Assembly: GCA_947305255.1 (NCBI GenBank)
Contig: CAMZDE010000003.1
Location: 1 to 46,581 of the forward strand
Direction of reading: 5' to 3'
DNA: 46,581 nt
Source: an uncultured Alphaproteobacteria bacterium
Lineage (GTDB): Bacteria > Pseudomonadota > Alphaproteobacteria > Rs-D84
A program made the translations under genes and the position numbers. Below, in pieces: positions 1,371 to 38,460 of the stretch. Each line of letters opens with the position of its first letter. Positions within the stretch are counted from its first letter, which is position 1. The notes beneath the pieces are model-generated. The model did not search any database. It was not told the origin of the DNA and worked only from the letters and a program-made list of their open reading frames with translations.

Positions 1371-1565
1371 CAACAAAAGACCACCAAAAATTGGTGGTCG
1401 GGGAGTTGGTGTCAACAAGTGAATGTTTCCGCGCCTTGCGGCTAACGGCTCCCCGACCATTAGTCAGGGACGATAACGGTGCAAAAACACCGATACATCT
1501 TTTTAACGATGCTTTCGCACCGCACTTGTAGGCCACCACAGCCCCGAACCCAATTATTCAGGTTC
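1371..1565 (-). promoter_or_regulatory. attenuator-like structured leader RNA, copy 1 (upstream of 776-1297)
   Basis: Transcribed leftward from a TGTTATAAT promoter. In order it holds: a 5' hairpin GAACC/GGTTC followed by GGGG; a GNRA-capped hairpin GGTGC-GAAA-GCATC; a CGGTG/CACCG hairpin; segment 1 CCCTGAC (1463-1469); segment 2 GGTCGGGGAGCC (1447-1458); segment 3 CTCCCCGACCACC (1393-1405); and segment 4 GGTGGTC (1379-1385) followed by TTTTGTTG. Segments 1:2, 2:3 and 3:4 can each pair, and 3:4 is an intrinsic terminator. A further GTTGTGTCC/GGACACAAC hairpin lies between the terminator and the gene. Same architecture as leaders at 7416, 28068, 32440 and 38015. Not a riboswitch class I recognise. 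Confidence 0.75.
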
Positions 1566-7415: not shown

Positions 7416-7645
7416 CGAACCTAAGGGATTGGGTTCGGGGTCTTAGAAAAACCTTACAACTTCGGTGTAAAGGCATCGTAATCTAAAAAGTTTCCGATGT
7501 TTTTATGTCGTTAATATCCTTGACCTAGCGGTCGAGGATTCCGTAATGTATGTCCAAGGGGCCAACCCCGAAAGATTACGGAGAGCACTAAGTTGTTGCT
7601 TTTTCTAGTCCTCGACCACCTATTTTTGGGTGGTCTTTATTTTTA
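7416..7645 (+). promoter_or_regulatory. attenuator-like structured leader RNA, copy 2 (upstream of 7665-8267)
   Basis: 5' hairpin GAACC/GGTTC then GGGG; GGTGTAAAGGCATCG core; CATCG/CGATG pairing; segment 1 ATCCTTGACC (7516-7525); segment 2 GGTCGAGGAT (7530-7539); an inner hairpin TCCGTAAT/ATTACGGA capped by GGGG-CCAA-CCCC; segment 3 TCCTCGACCACC (7609-7620); segment 4 GGTGGTC (7629-7635) followed by TTTATTTTT. Segment 2 pairs perfectly with either segment 1 or segment 3, and segment 3 with segment 4 forms the terminator. The A in segment 2 and the T in segment 3 replace the G and C of copy 1, a compensatory change. The gene starts 20 nt after the terminator. Confidence 0.77.
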
Positions 7646-7664: not shown

Positions 7665-8267
7665 ATGAAAGCAAAACGAATTTTATCAATCGCAATTATC
7701 GCCGCATTACCGTTCGGGGCACATGCAACCGATCCGGTTGTTGCCGTCGGGCCGGCACATGCGTCATCAAATCCGGTTGTCGCAACCGCCAACGCACCAT
7801 ACGTGACCGTAACCCCGACTCAGGCGGACGAATCACATATCGCCACCACCGCGTATGTTAAGGGGGCCTATAACGATGCCATCGCCGCAGTGAATAAAGT
7901 GGATGAAACTGTTGGTGAACAAATAGATAATGTTGTTGAACAGTTTCAGCGTGAAGATGCTGATTTGTATGAAGCTTTACATGCTGAAATTGAAAATACA
8001 AACAGTTCGTTTGACGACAAACAAAATAAATTTATTTTGGTTAGTAATCAAAGTAGCGGTGTGTCCGAATATGTGTTAGATAAGTCAGCGTTTTCTAATG
8101 AAATTCGAAACGGGTATGTTGCAAGTGTGGTTTCAGAAGATTCTAGTTTGGTTACTGCGGGGGCCGTGGCGGATGTATTTGCGTCGCAACGTGCCACGAT
8201 ATATACAACATGGGATACCAACGCCACGACTCAGGTTCCATTATCTTTTGTCCCTGTGCAGCCGTAA
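7665..8267 (+). CDS. secreted protein, local HIATTAYVKGAYN family, copy 2
   Basis: A 200-aa paralog of 776-1297, 27412 and 31834, on the opposite strand from the others. Signal peptide MKAKRILSIAIIAAL with cleavage after AHA; a Val/Ala/Pro-rich linker; the HIATTAYVKGAYN core (about 64-76); a unique glutamate-rich middle (EQIDNVVEQFQRED onward, likely helical); then the C-terminal block LVTAGAVA, SQRATIYTTWD and a T-x-V-P-L tail. Unlike the others it ends VPVQP rather than TAQ. Ribosome binding site GAGGGAAAG. It sits behind leader 2. Function unknown. Confidence 0.87.
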   Translation: MKAKRILSIAIIAALPFGAHATDPVVAVGPAHASSNPVVATANAPYVTVTPTQADESHIATTAYVKGAYNDAIAAVNKVDETVGEQIDNVVEQFQREDADLYEALHAEIENTNSSFDDKQNKFILVSNQSSGVSEYVLDKSAFSNEIRNGYVASVVSEDSSLVTAGAVADVFASQRATIYTTWDTNATTQVPLSFVPVQP

Positions 8268-8344
8268 CCCCCACTGTCGCTTTTGCCCCGCCATTGCGGC
8301 GGGGCCGACGAGATAAGCCCTTTGGCGTAATCGAGTCGGGGGCG

Positions 8345-8449
8345 GGTCTAAGGATTTTCAGAAAAAATAAATAATCCAAACAAATGACATTTAACCCGTC
8401 CCCGCATCGTGCTTCGTTTTACTCGCACTCTGCGACCCCGCCGCAAGGG
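8345..8449 (+). repeat. 105-bp dispersed repeat, copy 1
   Basis: Matches the reverse complement of 28376-28480 over the same length with about 8 mismatches and no gaps. It starts GGTCTAAGGATTTTCAG and ends in ACCCCGCCGCAAGGG, the left arm and loop of a terminator hairpin. No ORF and no transposase nearby. Both copies lie beside genes of the HIATTAYVKGAYN family. Confidence 0.85.
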
Positions 8450-8462
8450 CGGGGTTTGTTTT
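8434..8462 (+). terminator. intrinsic terminator
   Basis: ACCCCGCC-GCAA-GGGCGGGGT stem followed by TTGTTTTT. It may end transcripts from 7665-8267 or from the repeat. A similar GCCCCGCC/GGCGGGGC hairpin without a T tract lies nearer the gene, at 8283-8306. Confidence 0.8.
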
Positions 8463-27411: not shown

Positions 27412-28044
27412 TTATTGCGCGGTTGATAATTCAACCTGTGTCGTCGCATTTGAATCCCACGTAGTATAAATATCAACACGTTTTTCACCAATCATATCAC
27501 TGGCTACATCATAAGCGATATCTGAAGCAGCATCTTTAACAACTTTGCCCGCACCATGCACCAATTGCAAAACCGCACCCGATGTTATTAACATCTCATC
27601 TGGATTATTCCCAATTTCTTCTTGCAGCCAATTATACACACTTCTAAACTCTTCTTCGGACTGCGTAGTTATCACGCCACCTAGTTCTATAAAATCACCA
27701 TTACCTACATCTGTACTGGTTGACAATACATCCGCAACAATATTATCACCATCCGCATTAGTTAACTGTGCCTGTTTAGTGTTAGTGATATCGCCTACTT
27801 TGTTCACTGCGGCAATTGCGCTGTTATAGGCACCCTTTACATACGCGGTTGTTGCGATATGGTCTTGGTCGGCGGTGTCAATATTAACACGACCATATGG
27901 TGCGCCCGCGCCTGTTGTTGGCGCGGGGTGATTTGTATCTGCCACGCTTGGCGCGGTGTACATCGCCCCCGATATATTTTCAGCCATTGCACCGAATGGC
28001 AACGCAAGCATTATTGCGATTGTTAATAAGTTTCTTGTTGTCAT
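27412..28044 (-). CDS. secreted protein, local HIATTAYVKGAYN family, copy 3
   Basis: A 210-aa family member. The ATG at 28044 follows AAGGAGAG and gives a signal peptide (MTTRNLLTIAIMLAL, cleavage after AMA). The next ~45 residues (ENISGAMYTAP, TNHPAPTT, GRVNIDTADQDHIATTAYV) are almost the same as in copy 4. The middle (about 95-170: TDVGNGDFIELGGV, SVYNWLQEEIGN) is unique. The C-terminal block is longer than in other copies and reads EKRVDIYTTWD rather than SQRV, ending STAQ. It lies behind leader 3. The reading frame runs upstream through the leader but has no start signal there. Confidence 0.86.
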   Translation of the reverse strand: MTTRNLLTIAIMLALPFGAMAENISGAMYTAPSVADTNHPAPTTGAGAPYGRVNIDTADQDHIATTAYVKGAYNSAIAAVNKVGDITNTKQAQLTNADGDNIVADVLSTSTDVGNGDFIELGGVITTQSEEEFRSVYNWLQEEIGNNPDEMLITSGAVLQLVHGAGKVVKDAASDIAYDVASDMIGEKRVDIYTTWDSNATTQVELSTAQ

Positions 28045-28067: not shown

Positions 28068-28248
28068 AACAACAAAAAACCACCTGAAAATCAAAGGTGG
28101 TTGGAGGTTCGAAACAACTCAAACTGAAATTGTGCGCCTTATTCAATTTATTCGGCAGCCCTCCAACCATATAGTTGGAGATTTTAACGCTATCTCTAAC
28201 GCAGTTTGAAACGGGTTTCGACACCCCATCGGTGGAACCCCCACCGAC
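28068..28248 (-). promoter_or_regulatory. attenuator-like structured leader RNA, copy 3 (upstream of 27412-28044)
   Basis: Minus strand. 5' hairpin TCGGTGG/CCACCGA followed by TGGGGT; segment 1 CTCCAAC (28174-28180); segment 2 GGTTGGAGGG (28159-28168); segment 3 CCTCCAACCACC (28096-28108); segment 4 GGTGGTT (28078-28084) followed by TTTTGTTGTTG. Segments 2:3 pair perfectly as GGTTGGAGG/CCTCCAACC, where copies 1, 2 and 5 have GGTC/GACC; segments 1 and 4 change in step. Promoter: TTGCAT, 17 bp, TAAAAT (28255-28260) with TGA upstream. With copy 4 it forms a second subtype of the family. Confidence 0.77.
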
Positions 28249-28375
28249 ACAGGTATTTTATCAAAAATTACCCCCCGATGCAAATGGATTTTTTATATTG
28301 TGATAAAATCTTGCATACAACACTTTTATTCGCGGTGCCGGAAATAATTCTGCCCCACGTCGCAAAAAAAAACCA

Positions 28376-28480
28376 CCCTTGCGGCGGGGTCGCAGAGTGC
28401 GAGTAAAATGAAGCATGATGCGGGGGCGGGTTAGATATTGTTTGTTCGGATTATTTATTTTTTCTGAAAATCCTTAGACC
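28376..28480 (-). repeat. 105-bp dispersed repeat, copy 2 (inverted relative to copy 1)
   Basis: Reverse complement matches 8345-8449 over the full 105 bp with about 8 mismatches. On the minus strand it runs into GGGTGG and nine T, so a terminator-like hairpin is kept despite sequence change. Next to it (28481-28505) is GCGAACGACTGCGGGAATCC, a short palindromic-repeat-like end. The rest of 28249-28598 holds no gene; a CCG/CGG...TGGC/GCCA palindrome lies at 28517-28536. Confidence 0.83.
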
Positions 28481-28551
28481 AGCGAACGACTGCGGGAATC
28501 CAGATAATTAAAAAGATCCGTGTGGCGTGTGCCACGGTGAAAAATGGCAAA

Positions 28552-31833: not shown

Positions 31834-32415
31834 TTATTGCGCCGTTGACAGAGCAACCTGAGTCGTGGCATTTGAATCCCACGTCGTATATATATCAACA
31901 CGTTGACTTAAAATCCCCTCTGCCACAGCTTTCGCACTTATTAAACTCGAATCATAAAAACCATCGTAATAATTATTTTCTATGTCATTATCCCTGAGCG
32001 CATCAAGAAAATTTCCAGAGCCAACAACATAGCCACCACCATTAGCACCCTCTTCATATTCCAGTCTGTCTTGTTTGTAGTCAAGATCCCTATAAGACGC
32101 ATATTGTTGTTGGTCAACAACTTTCATTGTTTCTTCTACTGCTGTTTCTATTGCAAACTCGGTCACTTTGTTCACTGCGGCGATGGCACTATTATATGCA
32201 CCCTTTACATATGCGGTTGTCGCGATATGTTCTTGGTCGGCGGTATCTATATTCACACGACCATATAGCGGGTCTGCACTGGTTGTTGGTGCAGGGTGAT
32301 TTGTGTCATAGTGTGCCGGCGCAGTGTACATCGCACCCGAGATATTTTCAGCGTGTGCAGCAAATGGCAATGCCACGATTACGGCGATTGATAATAAAGT
32401 TTTTGTTGCTTTCAT
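31834..32415 (-). CDS. secreted protein, local HIATTAYVKGAYN family, copy 4
   Basis: A 193-aa family member. Signal peptide MKATKTLLSIAVIVAL with cleavage after AHA. The following ENISGAMYTAP, TNHPAPTT and GRVNIDTADQEHIATTAYV are nearly identical to copy 3, so the N-terminal halves were recently duplicated or exchanged. The middle (about 90-150) is Tyr/Asp/Gly-rich (SYRDLDYKQDRLEYEEG, NNYYDGFYD) and unrelated to the other copies. The C-terminal block SLISAKAVAEGILSQRVDI, then YTTWD and STAQ, is closest to copy 1. Ribosome binding site AAGGAGAG. It lies behind leader 4. A GC-rich hairpin without a T tract (about 31779-31800) follows it. Confidence 0.86.
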   Translation of the reverse strand: MKATKTLLSIAVIVALPFAAHAENISGAMYTAPAHYDTNHPAPTTSADPLYGRVNIDTADQEHIATTAYVKGAYNSAIAAVNKVTEFAIETAVEETMKVVDQQQYASYRDLDYKQDRLEYEEGANGGGYVVGSGNFLDALRDNDIENNYYDGFYDSSLISAKAVAEGILSQRVDIYTTWDSNATTQVALSTAQ

Positions 32416-32439: not shown

Positions 32440-32627
32440 ACAACAAAAACCACCCATAAAAAGGTGGTTGGAGGTTCAAGACAATTTGAGTGAAATTGTG
32501 TGCTTATTCTGTCGGAATCCGGCATTATTCGCAACCCTCCAACCATAAGTTGGAGATTTTTACGTCCGTATTAAACGAACAACACTCAATCGGGTCTTGA
32601 AACCCCATCAACAGAACACCTGTTGAC
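32440..32627 (-). promoter_or_regulatory. attenuator-like structured leader RNA, copy 4 (upstream of 31834-32415)
   Basis: Minus strand from a TGTTATAAT promoter (TATAAT at 32634-32639; TTGTGT 17 bp upstream). 5' hairpin TCAACAG/CTGTTGA then ATGGGGT, the same place and size as in copy 3 but with different bases that still pair; segment 1 CTCCAAC (32549-32555); segment 2 GGTTGGAGGG (32535-32544); segment 3 CCTCCAACCACC; segment 4 GGTGGTT followed by TTTGTTGTTG. The connecting stretch between segments 2 and 3 has a different sequence from copy 3 but similar length. Confidence 0.77.
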
Positions 32628-32699
32628 GCTAGCATTATAACACATTTTCAATACACACACAATAATAAATTTTAGATTTTGTATATGACTTGATTACAA

Positions 32700-35923: not shown

Positions 35924-36048
35924 GTCCATATGCGACAGCCCCTTAAAAACAAAAAACACGAAACGGGATATATGGACACACGATGCCTTTTACCGTGGTT
36001 ATTGGCATCACATGGGTCCCATATCAAAGTGGGACCCGAGTTTTTTTT
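35924..36048 (+). ncRNA. predicted small RNA 1 (~125 nt)
   Basis: No ORF. Stem I GTCCATAT/ATATGGAC (35924-35931 with 35970-35977). Stem II GATGCC/GGCATC presents the loop TTTTACCGTGGTTATT. The terminator GGGTCCCA/TGGGACCC (36014-36037) is followed by eight T. Same order of elements, same loop core ACCGTGGT and nearly the same length as small RNA 2. The terminator abuts the convergent gene ending at 36047. The loop base CCGTGGTTAT is complementary to the leader of the thioesterase mRNA. Confidence 0.65.
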
Positions 36049-36766
36049 AATCTGAATTGCCGTTGATAATATTGTTGCCAACAAATCCGCCAATGGGCCC
36101 TATACCCACCGCAGTCCCACCATAATTCACACGATTTGACGATGTATCCTGGGCGGTATTTATTTGTGCCTGGTCGTTTTCACTGTTCAAAGCAGTCGCA
36201 CGATAAAGAGAAGAATATACACCAGCGTTTATACCTGTGTTTTCTTGGTCATATAAACCTATTTGTGCCTTGTCCATAATAATTTCGCTTTCAATACCAG
36301 GTTTCATACCCAACGCTTCTTTGCGTTCTTTTAAACTGGCGGCCAGCGCAAAATATTCACTGCGTAACTGCATCAATTTTTCATCATTTCCGCCGGGCAA
36401 CTCAACAGGCACAGTCCCAAATTTAACAGATTTTCCATCGCCATAGGAACAACGCATAGTTTCAATATATGCCGTCATATCTGTCACCGCTTCGCGATCT
36501 GCGCGTTGTTCAGCCAAACCCTGTGCCAGTTGCATACCGCCAATCCCTGTCGCCGCCACTGTTGCCGCGGCCAGCGTCCGATTTGCCAAAGATTGTTCAC
36601 GTTTTTTTGCTTCCTCGTATGCTTTTTGCAATTCTTCATATTCATGATTTATGGTCTCGGCATATTGATACAGTTCTTTAACAGACATTTTTGTCAAATC
36701 GATTTCATCAGCATAAACGCTATTTATGAGAACAACACAACAAAATAGAATAGATTTTATTTTCAT
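36047..36766 (-). CDS. secreted coiled-coil protein with glycine-rich segments
   Basis: A 239-aa exported protein. Signal peptide MKIKSILFCCVVLINSVYA. Residues ~25-65 form a coiled coil (ELYQYAETINHEYEELQ, KAYEEAKKREQ), followed by a glycine/alanine hydrophobic stretch (AAATVAATGIGGMQLAQG, about 64-82) that could insert in a membrane, and a second helical region (MQLRSEYFALAASLKERK). The end is glycine-rich (GGTAVGIGPIGGFVGNN). Not recognised. It overlaps the upstream gene 36763-38001 by 4 nt (ATGA), so the two are coupled and share leader 5. Confidence 0.72.
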   Translation of the reverse strand: MKIKSILFCCVVLINSVYADEIDLTKMSVKELYQYAETINHEYEELQKAYEEAKKREQSLANRTLAAATVAATGIGGMQLAQGLAEQRADREAVTDMTAYIETMRCSYGDGKSVKFGTVPVELPGGNDEKLMQLRSEYFALAASLKERKEALGMKPGIESEIIMDKAQIGLYDQENTGINAGVYSSLYRATALNSENDQAQINTAQDTSSNRVNYGGTAVGIGPIGGFVGNNIINGNSD

Positions 36767-38001
36767 TCTGTCACTCTTTCATCATGTTCAATTGGCTCTC
36801 GTTTTGTTTCTGTTTTTTGATAATTTCCATAAAACGATAAAGTGTGTCCATAAATGCTCCCCATAGGGATATGGTTGCTTTCCCAATCATGATACCAACC
36901 ACCGTTTTCGTTATGGTCTTGAAACTTCCCGTTTTTCGTATCAATACGATCTTGATTTTCCCAATTTCTGACCGCAGTGAAATCCTGAATCATATCATAA
37001 AAACCAACATGACAATCACAATAAATCAGAGTATCCAATTGATTTAAGGGTCCAGAACAATTACAATCGCTATACGCATCTGCATTTATATGTGTATTGC
37101 TTAACACATCATCATAGTCATAGGAAATATCAATCAGATTATCACCTGGATATTCTGTTATATTTAATTCATATTTTTCGTATTTTTCTGGTCTTTGTTC
37201 AACGTTCCAGCACCCTATCGCCACCGTTTGACACTCTTTATTATAAGGATTTATAGACCACCTTCGATGGTTTGAATTTTCATTTACTTTTAGTAAATAA
37301 TTGTATTCTTTTTCTGCTTTACGAAGTTTTTTACGTTTTTCTCTAACTTTTTTTCTGGAATGTTCAGATTTTTGTGTTTCTAATATATATTCCCGGTTTG
37401 CTTTTTCGAATTCTTCCAGGGCATTTCTTAATTCATCTGCCAAGCTTTTTATTTCATTTGTTTCTTCCAGACAATATTTTTCACAATAGATATCAACAGG
37501 GGCTTTTGCTGTTTCCTGGGCAATCAAATCATCAAATAACTTAACATCCGTTTGTTTAAAATGTCCCATTTTATCACAGGTTTTACATTTTGAACCTGCC
37601 TTGGTTATTAAATCTTTTTCAGAAAGATAAAGAGTCCTATATTTAACATCCGATGTATTAAAATAATTTGTTTCATTACCTTCTTTTTCCACCGTTACCC
37701 CATCTTTAGCGCGCATATAAATATCATCGATAAAATTTTGTTTTACTTCTTCAAATGCTATACGTGCCAGATAATTTCTTATTACCATACGTTTGGCATC
37801 AATACTTAAATTATCAAAACCAACCCAATCAAAGTCGTTATATCTTTGCTTTACCTGTTCAACCAGTTTGTCAAATTCTTCTTGGTTAATTTTCATATTG
37901 TTTTCAATTATAGATATATTTGTTTCAACATCTATATTTTCAGCATCCGCATACGAAAACACCGACAGTGTCAGAAAAAACAACACAAAAATCTTTCTCA
38001 C
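36763..38001 (-). CDS. secreted Cys-containing coiled-coil protein under leader 5
   Basis: A 412-aa exported protein starting at GTG (38001) with GGGGG 6 nt upstream. Signal peptide MRKIFVLFFLTLSVF with cleavage after ADA. N-terminal acidic helical region; CKTCDKMGHFKQTD at about 140 (CxxC); CEKYCLEETNEIK; a strongly charged coiled coil (about 190-240, KKVREKRKKLRKAEKE); then a Tyr/Asp-rich C-terminal part with CNCSGPL and YCDCHVGFYD. No family recognised and no similarity to the HIATTAYVKGAYN family, although it carries the same type of leader RNA. First gene of a two-gene operon with 36047. Confidence 0.75.
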   Translation of the reverse strand: MRKIFVLFFLTLSVFSYADAENIDVETNISIIENNMKINQEEFDKLVEQVKQRYNDFDWVGFDNLSIDAKRMVIRNYLARIAFEEVKQNFIDDIYMRAKDGVTVEKEGNETNYFNTSDVKYRTLYLSEKDLITKAGSKCKTCDKMGHFKQTDVKLFDDLIAQETAKAPVDIYCEKYCLEETNEIKSLADELRNALEEFEKANREYILETQKSEHSRKKVREKRKKLRKAEKEYNYLLKVNENSNHRRWSINPYNKECQTVAIGCWNVEQRPEKYEKYELNITEYPGDNLIDISYDYDDVLSNTHINADAYSDCNCSGPLNQLDTLIYCDCHVGFYDMIQDFTAVRNWENQDRIDTKNGKFQDHNENGGWYHDWESNHIPMGSIYGHTLSFYGNYQKTETKREPIEHDERVTE

Positions 38002-38014
38002 CGTTTGCCCCCTG

Positions 38015-38235
38015 ATAAAAAATGACCACCAGAAAATTGGTGGTCGGGGAATTGCTAAATCATGTTGTTATTGACTCTGTCGCTTTCGGGTTGCCCCTAT
38101 TTTATAACGGACAGTCCCCCGACCATAAGTCAGGGATGATAACGGCGCAAAAGACACCGATAACATCATTATAACGATGCTTTCGCACCGAACAACATGG
38201 GCTTAGCATAGCCCCGAACCAATCTTTCAGGTTCA
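38015..38235 (-). promoter_or_regulatory. attenuator-like structured leader RNA, copy 5 (upstream of 36763-38001)
   Basis: Minus strand from TGATAGAAT (TAGAAT at 38242-38247). 5' hairpin GAACC/GGTTC then GGGG; GGTGCGAAAGCATCG core; CGGTG/GCGCCG hairpin; segment 1 CCCTGAC (38129-38135); segment 2 GGTCGGGGGAC (38114-38124); GGGGCAACCCGAAAG as in copy 2; segment 3 TCCCCGACCACC (38039-38050); segment 4 GGTGGTC (38024-38030) followed by ATTTTTTAT. Closest to copies 1 and 2, but the downstream gene is unrelated to theirs. Confidence 0.75.
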
Positions 38236-38282
38236 ATTTGGATTCTATCATAAAAAAATAAAAATTAAAACCAAAAATTTGA

Positions 38283-38324: not shown

Positions 38325-38330
38325 AAAACT

Positions 38331-38456
38331 GTCTGATGACACACGGCAACCCCAAAGAATTATTTCGACGGCGGGTTGAGGTCACAGACCATCAATGTCC
38401 CCAATAACCGTGGTGCGGGGCGTTGAAAAAATCCCGCCCATTTGGGCGGGGTTTTA
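38331..38456 (+). ncRNA. predicted small RNA 2 (~126 nt)
   Basis: Stem I GTCTG/CAGAC with GAC/GTC and an inner AACCC/GGGTT; stem II with CCCC/GGGG around the loop AATAACCGTGGTGC; then the terminator CCCGCCC-ATTT-GGGCGGG with TTTTATTT. No ORF. Arrangement, length and loop core ACCGTGGT are the same as in small RNA 1, although the stems differ in sequence. The terminator also serves the convergent gene at 38461. Confidence 0.68.
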
Positions 38457-38460
38457 TTTA

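Follow-up and report, generated by a model that had tools for sequence, protein, structure and literature searches.

Transcription attenuators of the trp amino-acid type alternate between a fold with segments 1:2 and 3:4 paired, the latter being the terminator, and a 2:3 antiterminator. Phages silence their own antirepressor genes by c4 antisense RNA, and in the annotated record of phage P1 the order is putative a1 and b1, c4, a2, b2, and then, 10 nt on, icd. The c4 RNA is released by RNase P; its b' segment covers the ribosome site, and a' gives the specificity (PMC5320573). The C4-derived Group 1 sRNAs of Acinetobacter baumannii are numerous and have been described as processed sRNAs (PMC5320573). 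Another RNA, sRNA-Xcc1 (RF02221), has been described as a trans-acting sRNA that occurs in integron cassettes upstream of symE, and not as a leader (PMC2996969, PMC12444791). In the literature accessible to us, to which the 2011 sRNA-Xcc1 paper did not belong, no paper was found that links sRNA-Xcc1 with c4 or describes the leaders reported here.

We compared these systems with a repeated leader RNA in 46,581 nt of DNA (the window) from an uncultured gut alphaproteobacterium. Leader copy 5 occupies 38009-38236 on the minus strand, directly upstream of a GTG start codon at 38001, and is the same RNA element as leader copies 1-4; the interval 36763-38235 given for it in the initial annotation is mostly the 412-aa gene behind it. 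Two forms of the leader occur: copies 1, 2, and 5 are of type A, and copies 3 and 4, like most others, belong to the shorter type B. Copy 1 (1372-1566, core 1393-1458, minus strand) stands before the HIATTAY gene at 776-1297, copy 2 (7416-7644, core 7530-7620, plus strand) before that at 7665-8267, copy 3 (28070-28262, core 28096-28168, minus strand) before that at 27412-28044, and copy 4 (32440-32628, core 32463-32544, minus strand) before that at 31834-32415. The described closeness of copy 5 to copies 1 and 2 held for the 15-base core GGTGCGAAAGCATCG, which is exact in copies 1 and 5 with 3 mismatches in copy 2, and was counted 7 times against a maximum of 6 and a mean of 1.3 in 100 shuffles. 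It did not hold for the hairpin GGGGCAACCCGAAAG, which is exact in copy 5 alone, copy 2 having GGGGCCAACCCCGAAAG and copy 1 lacking the segment. A blastn search with the 227-base copy 5 recovered about 11 further leaders from the same genome, most with E values of 1e-7 to 1e-33, and the RNA of copy 5 folds with -89.4 kcal/mol (z = -5.8 relative to shuffles).

The elements of the leader are arranged 5' to 3' as -10 element, P1, b, a, P3, P4, core (closing helix, P5, a', b'), terminator, and start codon. In copy 5, where all of them lie on the minus strand, the -10-like hexamer TAGAAT (38242-38247) is followed by the P1 hairpin (GAACC...GGTTC, 38216-38234), which was identified from the fold and is shared with the type A copies; in most own-genome copies the hexamer stands at a nearly constant distance from this first hairpin. 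Two upstream targets come next. Target b (TGCTAA, 38203-38208), the equivalent of a1 of P1 c4, pairs with the antisense strand b' (TTAGCA, 38053-38058), and target a (CATGTTGTT, 38191-38199), the private address and equivalent of b1, is complementary at 9/9 bases to the antisense loop a' (AACAACATG, 38061-38069); the leader's a thus corresponds to the b of c4. The P3 domain (38143-38190), which includes GGTGCGAAAGCATCG, can be drawn from sequence and fold as the hairpins CGGTGC/GCATCG and CGGTG/GCGCCG or as one long helix. The P4 hairpin CCCTGAC-TTATG-GTCGGGG (38117-38135), present in 36/37 leaders, ties up the 5' strand of the closing helix. The core itself (38039-38124; covariance model R1, E = 4.7e-14) consists of the closing helix GGTCGGGG/CCCCGACC, the P5 hairpin, the a' loop, the b' strand, and a 3' ACC, and RF02221 matches sister copies in the same register. 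An intrinsic terminator, GACCACCA...TGGTGGTC-A-TTTTTT (38015-38045), ends the leader, with its 5' arm overlapping the 3' strand of the closing helix. Beyond the leader and oriented away from it, a possible small RNA gene of about 120 nt was noticed at about 38325-38457 on the plus strand, with a promoter-like TATAAT and a strong GC terminator; an Rfam scan gave no convincing match to it.

The gene behind copy 5 (36763-38001, minus strand) encodes an exported 412-aa protein without a known family, which matched no Pfam family above its cut-off. It is followed by the gene for a 239-aa exported protein (36047-36766). The initial annotation had seen no resemblance of the 412-aa protein to the HIATTAYVKGAYN (HIATTAY) family, and our searches agree: BLASTP against the family gave E = 3.4, and a family HMM built on 45 members scored it at -0.3 bits (E 0.16 among 3 sequences), whereas a true member, itself part of the training set, reached 166 bits. 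As judged from these sequence comparisons, the 412-aa protein is unrelated to the family. This genome, small as it is, encodes 45 or more paralogous members of the HIATTAYVKGAYN family, exported proteins with lengths of 141-297 aa. No Pfam family was found for the copies scanned, and the paralogues are possibly a variable surface repertoire.

R1 was built from 33 gut-leader cores, all from Alphaproteobacteria. In the own genome (835 kb, 74% complete) it found 54 copies, 53 of them at E <= 2.5e-5, including one weak match before a TatD-like gene. An ORF of the HIATTAY/KGAYN family follows 45 of the 54, and contig ends truncate another 3; the remaining leaders precede the 412-aa protein, an LPP20-like lipoprotein, a resolvase-like protein, an LRR-like exported protein, and an unknown protein. 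A second repeated non-coding element of 128 nt, 88% identical between its copies and with a GC-rich end hairpin, was seen at 8334-8461 (plus strand) and 28364-28491 (minus strand), with a third copy at G000:C21:14380-14500 and a fragment at C2:5450.

Of the 39 genomes searched with R1, the own one among them, 31 gave matches, and one congener reached as many as 50 copies. Matches to the exact type A pattern among GTDB contigs came mostly from metagenome-assembled genomes (MAGs) of ruminant- and termite-gut Alphaproteobacteria; most of the loci compared are from MAGs. After a check for a/a' pairing and the closing helix, 56/82 pattern matches were kept and 26/82 failed. The failing or chance matches came from unrelated bacteria, and a few that passed also look chance-like (e.g. 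L151, L159, L181, L189, L192). Inspection of the genes behind the leaders in the own genome, the relatives, and the GTDB set revealed a signal- or TM-like N-terminus in 68/86, as against 89/333 other ORFs of the same loci, by a crude heuristic. Their Pfam matches include outer-membrane barrels, the YadA anchor, PagL, Surface_Ag_2, and PAP2. The exceptions include genes for a C-5 DNA methylase, for enzymes of the Stealth and FkbM families, for an HTH_3 and a Resolvase-like protein, and apparently for HsdM.

These comparisons support the view, first put forward in the initial annotation, of the leader as a portable module, with roughly 80% of the genes behind it coding for exported or membrane proteins. 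In this genome it stands before several genes that are unrelated to each other, and in other gut Alphaproteobacteria the genes that follow it belong to widely differing families. Its proposed dedication to exported proteins fits most of the genes counted, by the same heuristic, and fails for the methylase, Stealth, FkbM, HTH, resolvase-like, and apparent HsdM genes. Its independence of any one gene family is borne out across species, while in the own genome the HIATTAY/KGAYN family has it as its standing leader.

Rfam at its gathering thresholds found rRNA and tRNA alone in the whole window and no known riboswitch or leader, and RF02221 was the sole consistent match in permissive scans. RF02221 matches the leader cores in register (L002, 50.3 bits; L007, 39.8; L011, 39.1; others, 26-47), all below its gathering score of 53 bits. 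It was significant in 23/40 genomes (own and relatives), with E values down to 1.7e-8 per genome, in 0/14 controls, and in 55/399 genomes across Pseudomonadota; reciprocally, R1 matches sRNA-Xcc1 cores elsewhere with E values down to 2.9e-7. The two RNAs have a homologous core structure in the same register and share a closing helix starting GG(N)CGGGG, the P5 hairpin, the a' stem-loop, the b' strand, and the ACC after the helix. By sequence and structure, the gut leader is a variant of sRNA-Xcc1, although it scores below the Rfam cut-off. The leaders differ from sRNA-Xcc1 in that P4 and the terminator have been added and the downstream targets at the ribosome site are absent. A congener carries, beside leader-type copies, a phage-like sRNA-Xcc1 (L021, G019:C7:80229-80314; 57.8 bits) with a start-codon target, and a copy of this type is a possible source of the leader family.

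The phage loci of sRNA-Xcc1 reveal the layout of the P1 c4 antisense RNA, with targets upstream, two antisense loops, and targets at the ribosome-binding site, as far as sequence can tell. The a' loop matches an upstream segment in 35 and a downstream segment in 32 of the 36 phage loci, the downstream target ends a median of 9 nt before the start codon, and own pairing exceeded all permutations both upstream and downstream. The genes behind are antirepressors (P22_AR, BRO-N, KilA-N, AntA). Terminator-like stems were found in 10/48 of the phage form, of which P4 and the terminator are not typical. The c4 layout was seen in loci L086-L134 (IMG/VR) and L051-L080, which come from phages and Pseudomonadota genomes. 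Some chromosomal copies of sRNA-Xcc1 precede small SymE-like proteins. Between the upstream targets and the core, phage loci (e.g. L101, L108) and the P1 c4 region (L301) carry a GCGG/CCGC/GCGG-T-run, which resembles an internal attenuator both in phage sRNA-Xcc1 and in P1 c4; the leader P3 may have something similar.

The leaders have much in common with the C4 RNA of P1 and P7 (RF01695), namely a promoter, upstream targets, a hairpin domain, a core with two antisense segments, and a closing helix that starts with GG. They differ in that the a2 and b2 found before icd are missing, an intrinsic terminator stands in their place, no antirepressor is a neighbour, and there are many copies per genome. 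RF01695, which does find P1 c4, gave no match at E <= 10 in the scanned leader loci, and P1 c4 is not recognised by R1. Most leader copies have GG at the start of the closing helix, and RCC follows the helix; this arrangement might fit an RNase P substrate. The Group 1 sRNAs of A. baumannii resemble the leaders in being chromosomal, multicopy, and of the c4 type with a varying specificity loop, but the leader RNA is joined to a terminator and a gene.

Complementarity between core and upstream targets, the c4-type feature that the gut leaders retain, is private to each copy; neither these private addresses nor the c4-type architecture figured in the initial annotation. In the 21 leaders of type A, the mean score of a' was 7.69 of 8 positions against its own a and 4.98 against the a of others (best of 20000 permutations, 6.19), and that of b' was 5.86 of 6 against its own b and 4.42 against others (best permutation, 5.12). 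The a/a' test allowed a register window and gave mismatched pairs equal freedom. A fixed-register version had been set aside, with 76% of a/a' positions paired against 49% shuffled and several leaders shifted by one base; the fixed-register b/b' test failed because of this shift. In the own genome, 49/51 leaders pair a' with their own upstream segment at >=7/8, compared with 8.5% of between-leader pairs; in the pattern-scan set a' was picked by complementarity, so the own-pairing score there is not independent evidence. The a addresses are distinct in 20/21 type A leaders. The self-matching address private to each copy points to a set of many on/off switches, all derived from a single phage-type part and addressable one by one.

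The private pairing bears on two other accounts of the repeats. A riboswitch or protein-binding leader, in which a metabolite or protein bound by the core would govern the terminator and the a/a' helix would be merely structural, could explain the conserved unpaired core residues of type A (TATACAA..GAAAG), the terminator architecture, and the many copies serving related functions. We regard it as improbable, since a structural helix need not differ in nearly every copy, a/a' has the same place and order as the target/antisense pairs in phage sRNA-Xcc1 and P1 c4, whose sequence recurs at the ribosome site, and Rfam gave no riboswitch match. Less likely still are leaders that are recombination or cassette-shuffling sites, a promoter plus a repeat by which surface-protein genes are duplicated or swapped, with regulation secondary. 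The 54 similar copies before paralogous genes, several of them near contig ends, would suit such sites, as would the presence of sRNA-Xcc1 in integron cassettes (PMC12444791), on a plasmid beside a Tn3 transposase, and in phages. However, exchange inside the leaders would break the match between a and a', which holds in nearly every copy across a distance of about 100 nt, and compensating changes preserve the closing helix, P4, and terminator.

The second c4-type feature, repetition of the targets at the ribosome-binding site, was found in 32/36 phage sRNA-Xcc1 loci and not in the gut leaders. In the 40 nt before the start codon of the gut leaders, a' matched its own region no better than others (5.38 against 5.36 of 7), and a target for b' was absent. 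A broader duplex test on the gut leaders gave a small downstream excess (-16.8 versus -14.9 kcal/mol; permutation fraction 0.0003) that is not localised to the start codon.

The downstream end of the leader carries a different kind of signal. An intrinsic terminator scored above the 95% shuffle cut in 40/42 leaders, and one is present in 53/54 of those in the own genome; in nearly all of the 40 the first base of its 5' arm lies 2-6 nt inside the closing helix, which itself shows changes on both sides at 7/8 pairs. The terminator thus overlaps an alternative antiterminator helix, the arrangement of an attenuator. In the own genome, a median of 32 nt separates the terminator stem from the start codon, which leaves a second promoter no space, so that the gene must be transcribed through the leader. 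This spacing counts against an independent trans-acting, c4-like sRNA gene with its own promoter and terminator, whose loops would act on other mRNAs. Such a gene would account for the promoter-like -10 and the terminator, and would accord with the trans-acting role described for c4 and sRNA-Xcc1 and with the numerous c4-derived sRNAs of Acinetobacter (PMC5320573). The antisense loops, however, match their own upstream segment and nothing close to the start codon of the following gene, within the region searched, and we hold a separate sRNA gene to be about as improbable as a riboswitch.

Folding energies were calculated for secondary structure, ignoring pseudoknots and co-transcriptional folding. 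In pseudoknot-free minimum-energy folds, the terminator formed in 31/37 leaders and the closing helix in 1/37. The energy needed to force the closing helix was 11.8 kcal/mol for the full leader, 3.4 once the upstream targets and P3 had been taken away, and 1.0 for the core by itself. The fall from 11.8 to 3.4 kcal/mol argues that the upstream pairing locks the terminating fold. Even without the upstream targets, the closing helix stays 3.4 kcal/mol less favourable as long as P4 is there, so breaking the upstream pairing alone may not suffice. From these energies alone we infer that the default state is off.

We think it probable that the leader is an antisense module of the c4/sRNA-Xcc1 type that has turned into a cis-acting transcription attenuator, has been multiplied before about 50 genes, and is off by default. 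The sequences themselves display its architecture, private complementarity, terminator overlap, and loss of ribosome-site targets. A promoter just upstream would start the RNA at P1, and targets b and a would pair with the antisense segments a' and b' of the core to form P2. In the fold locked by P2, the 5' strand of the closing helix would be held in P4 and the terminator would form, and transcription would presumably stop in vivo before the gene. In the alternative fold the strands of the closing helix would pair, crossing P2 and taking bases from the terminator stem, which would allow read-through. The four-segment logic is that of the trp-type attenuators, but control would sit in an RNA-RNA address and not in the translation of a leader peptide.

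The leader would open when P2 is broken, and its private a/a' address would in principle let each copy be opened on its own. The opener could be the copy's own core, released from read-through transcripts, another RNA, a protein, or a transcription-speed signal; what we say of the opener, like the processing of the core, we infer. If a released core supplied its own leader, a positive loop would form, speculative as this is. A private, RNA-addressed memory switch, in which the core released from a read-through transcript pairs in trans with the upstream target on newly made transcripts of the same locus, blocks the terminating fold, and keeps the gene on, is conceivable but rather unlikely. 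If it were true, about 50 orthogonal switches in a 0.8-Mb genome would allow changing sets of surface proteins without DNA rearrangement.

For the RNA family, these results reinterpret sRNA-Xcc1, widely annotated as a trans-acting sRNA, as an RNA with the phage c4 layout before antirepressor genes. A module of this phage type has become a chromosomal leader that is used about 50 times in one small genome, and the leader set would amount to a natural library of orthogonal RNA attenuators. Whether orthogonal RNA addresses of 8-9 bases control a variable surface proteome gene by gene has thereby become a testable question.
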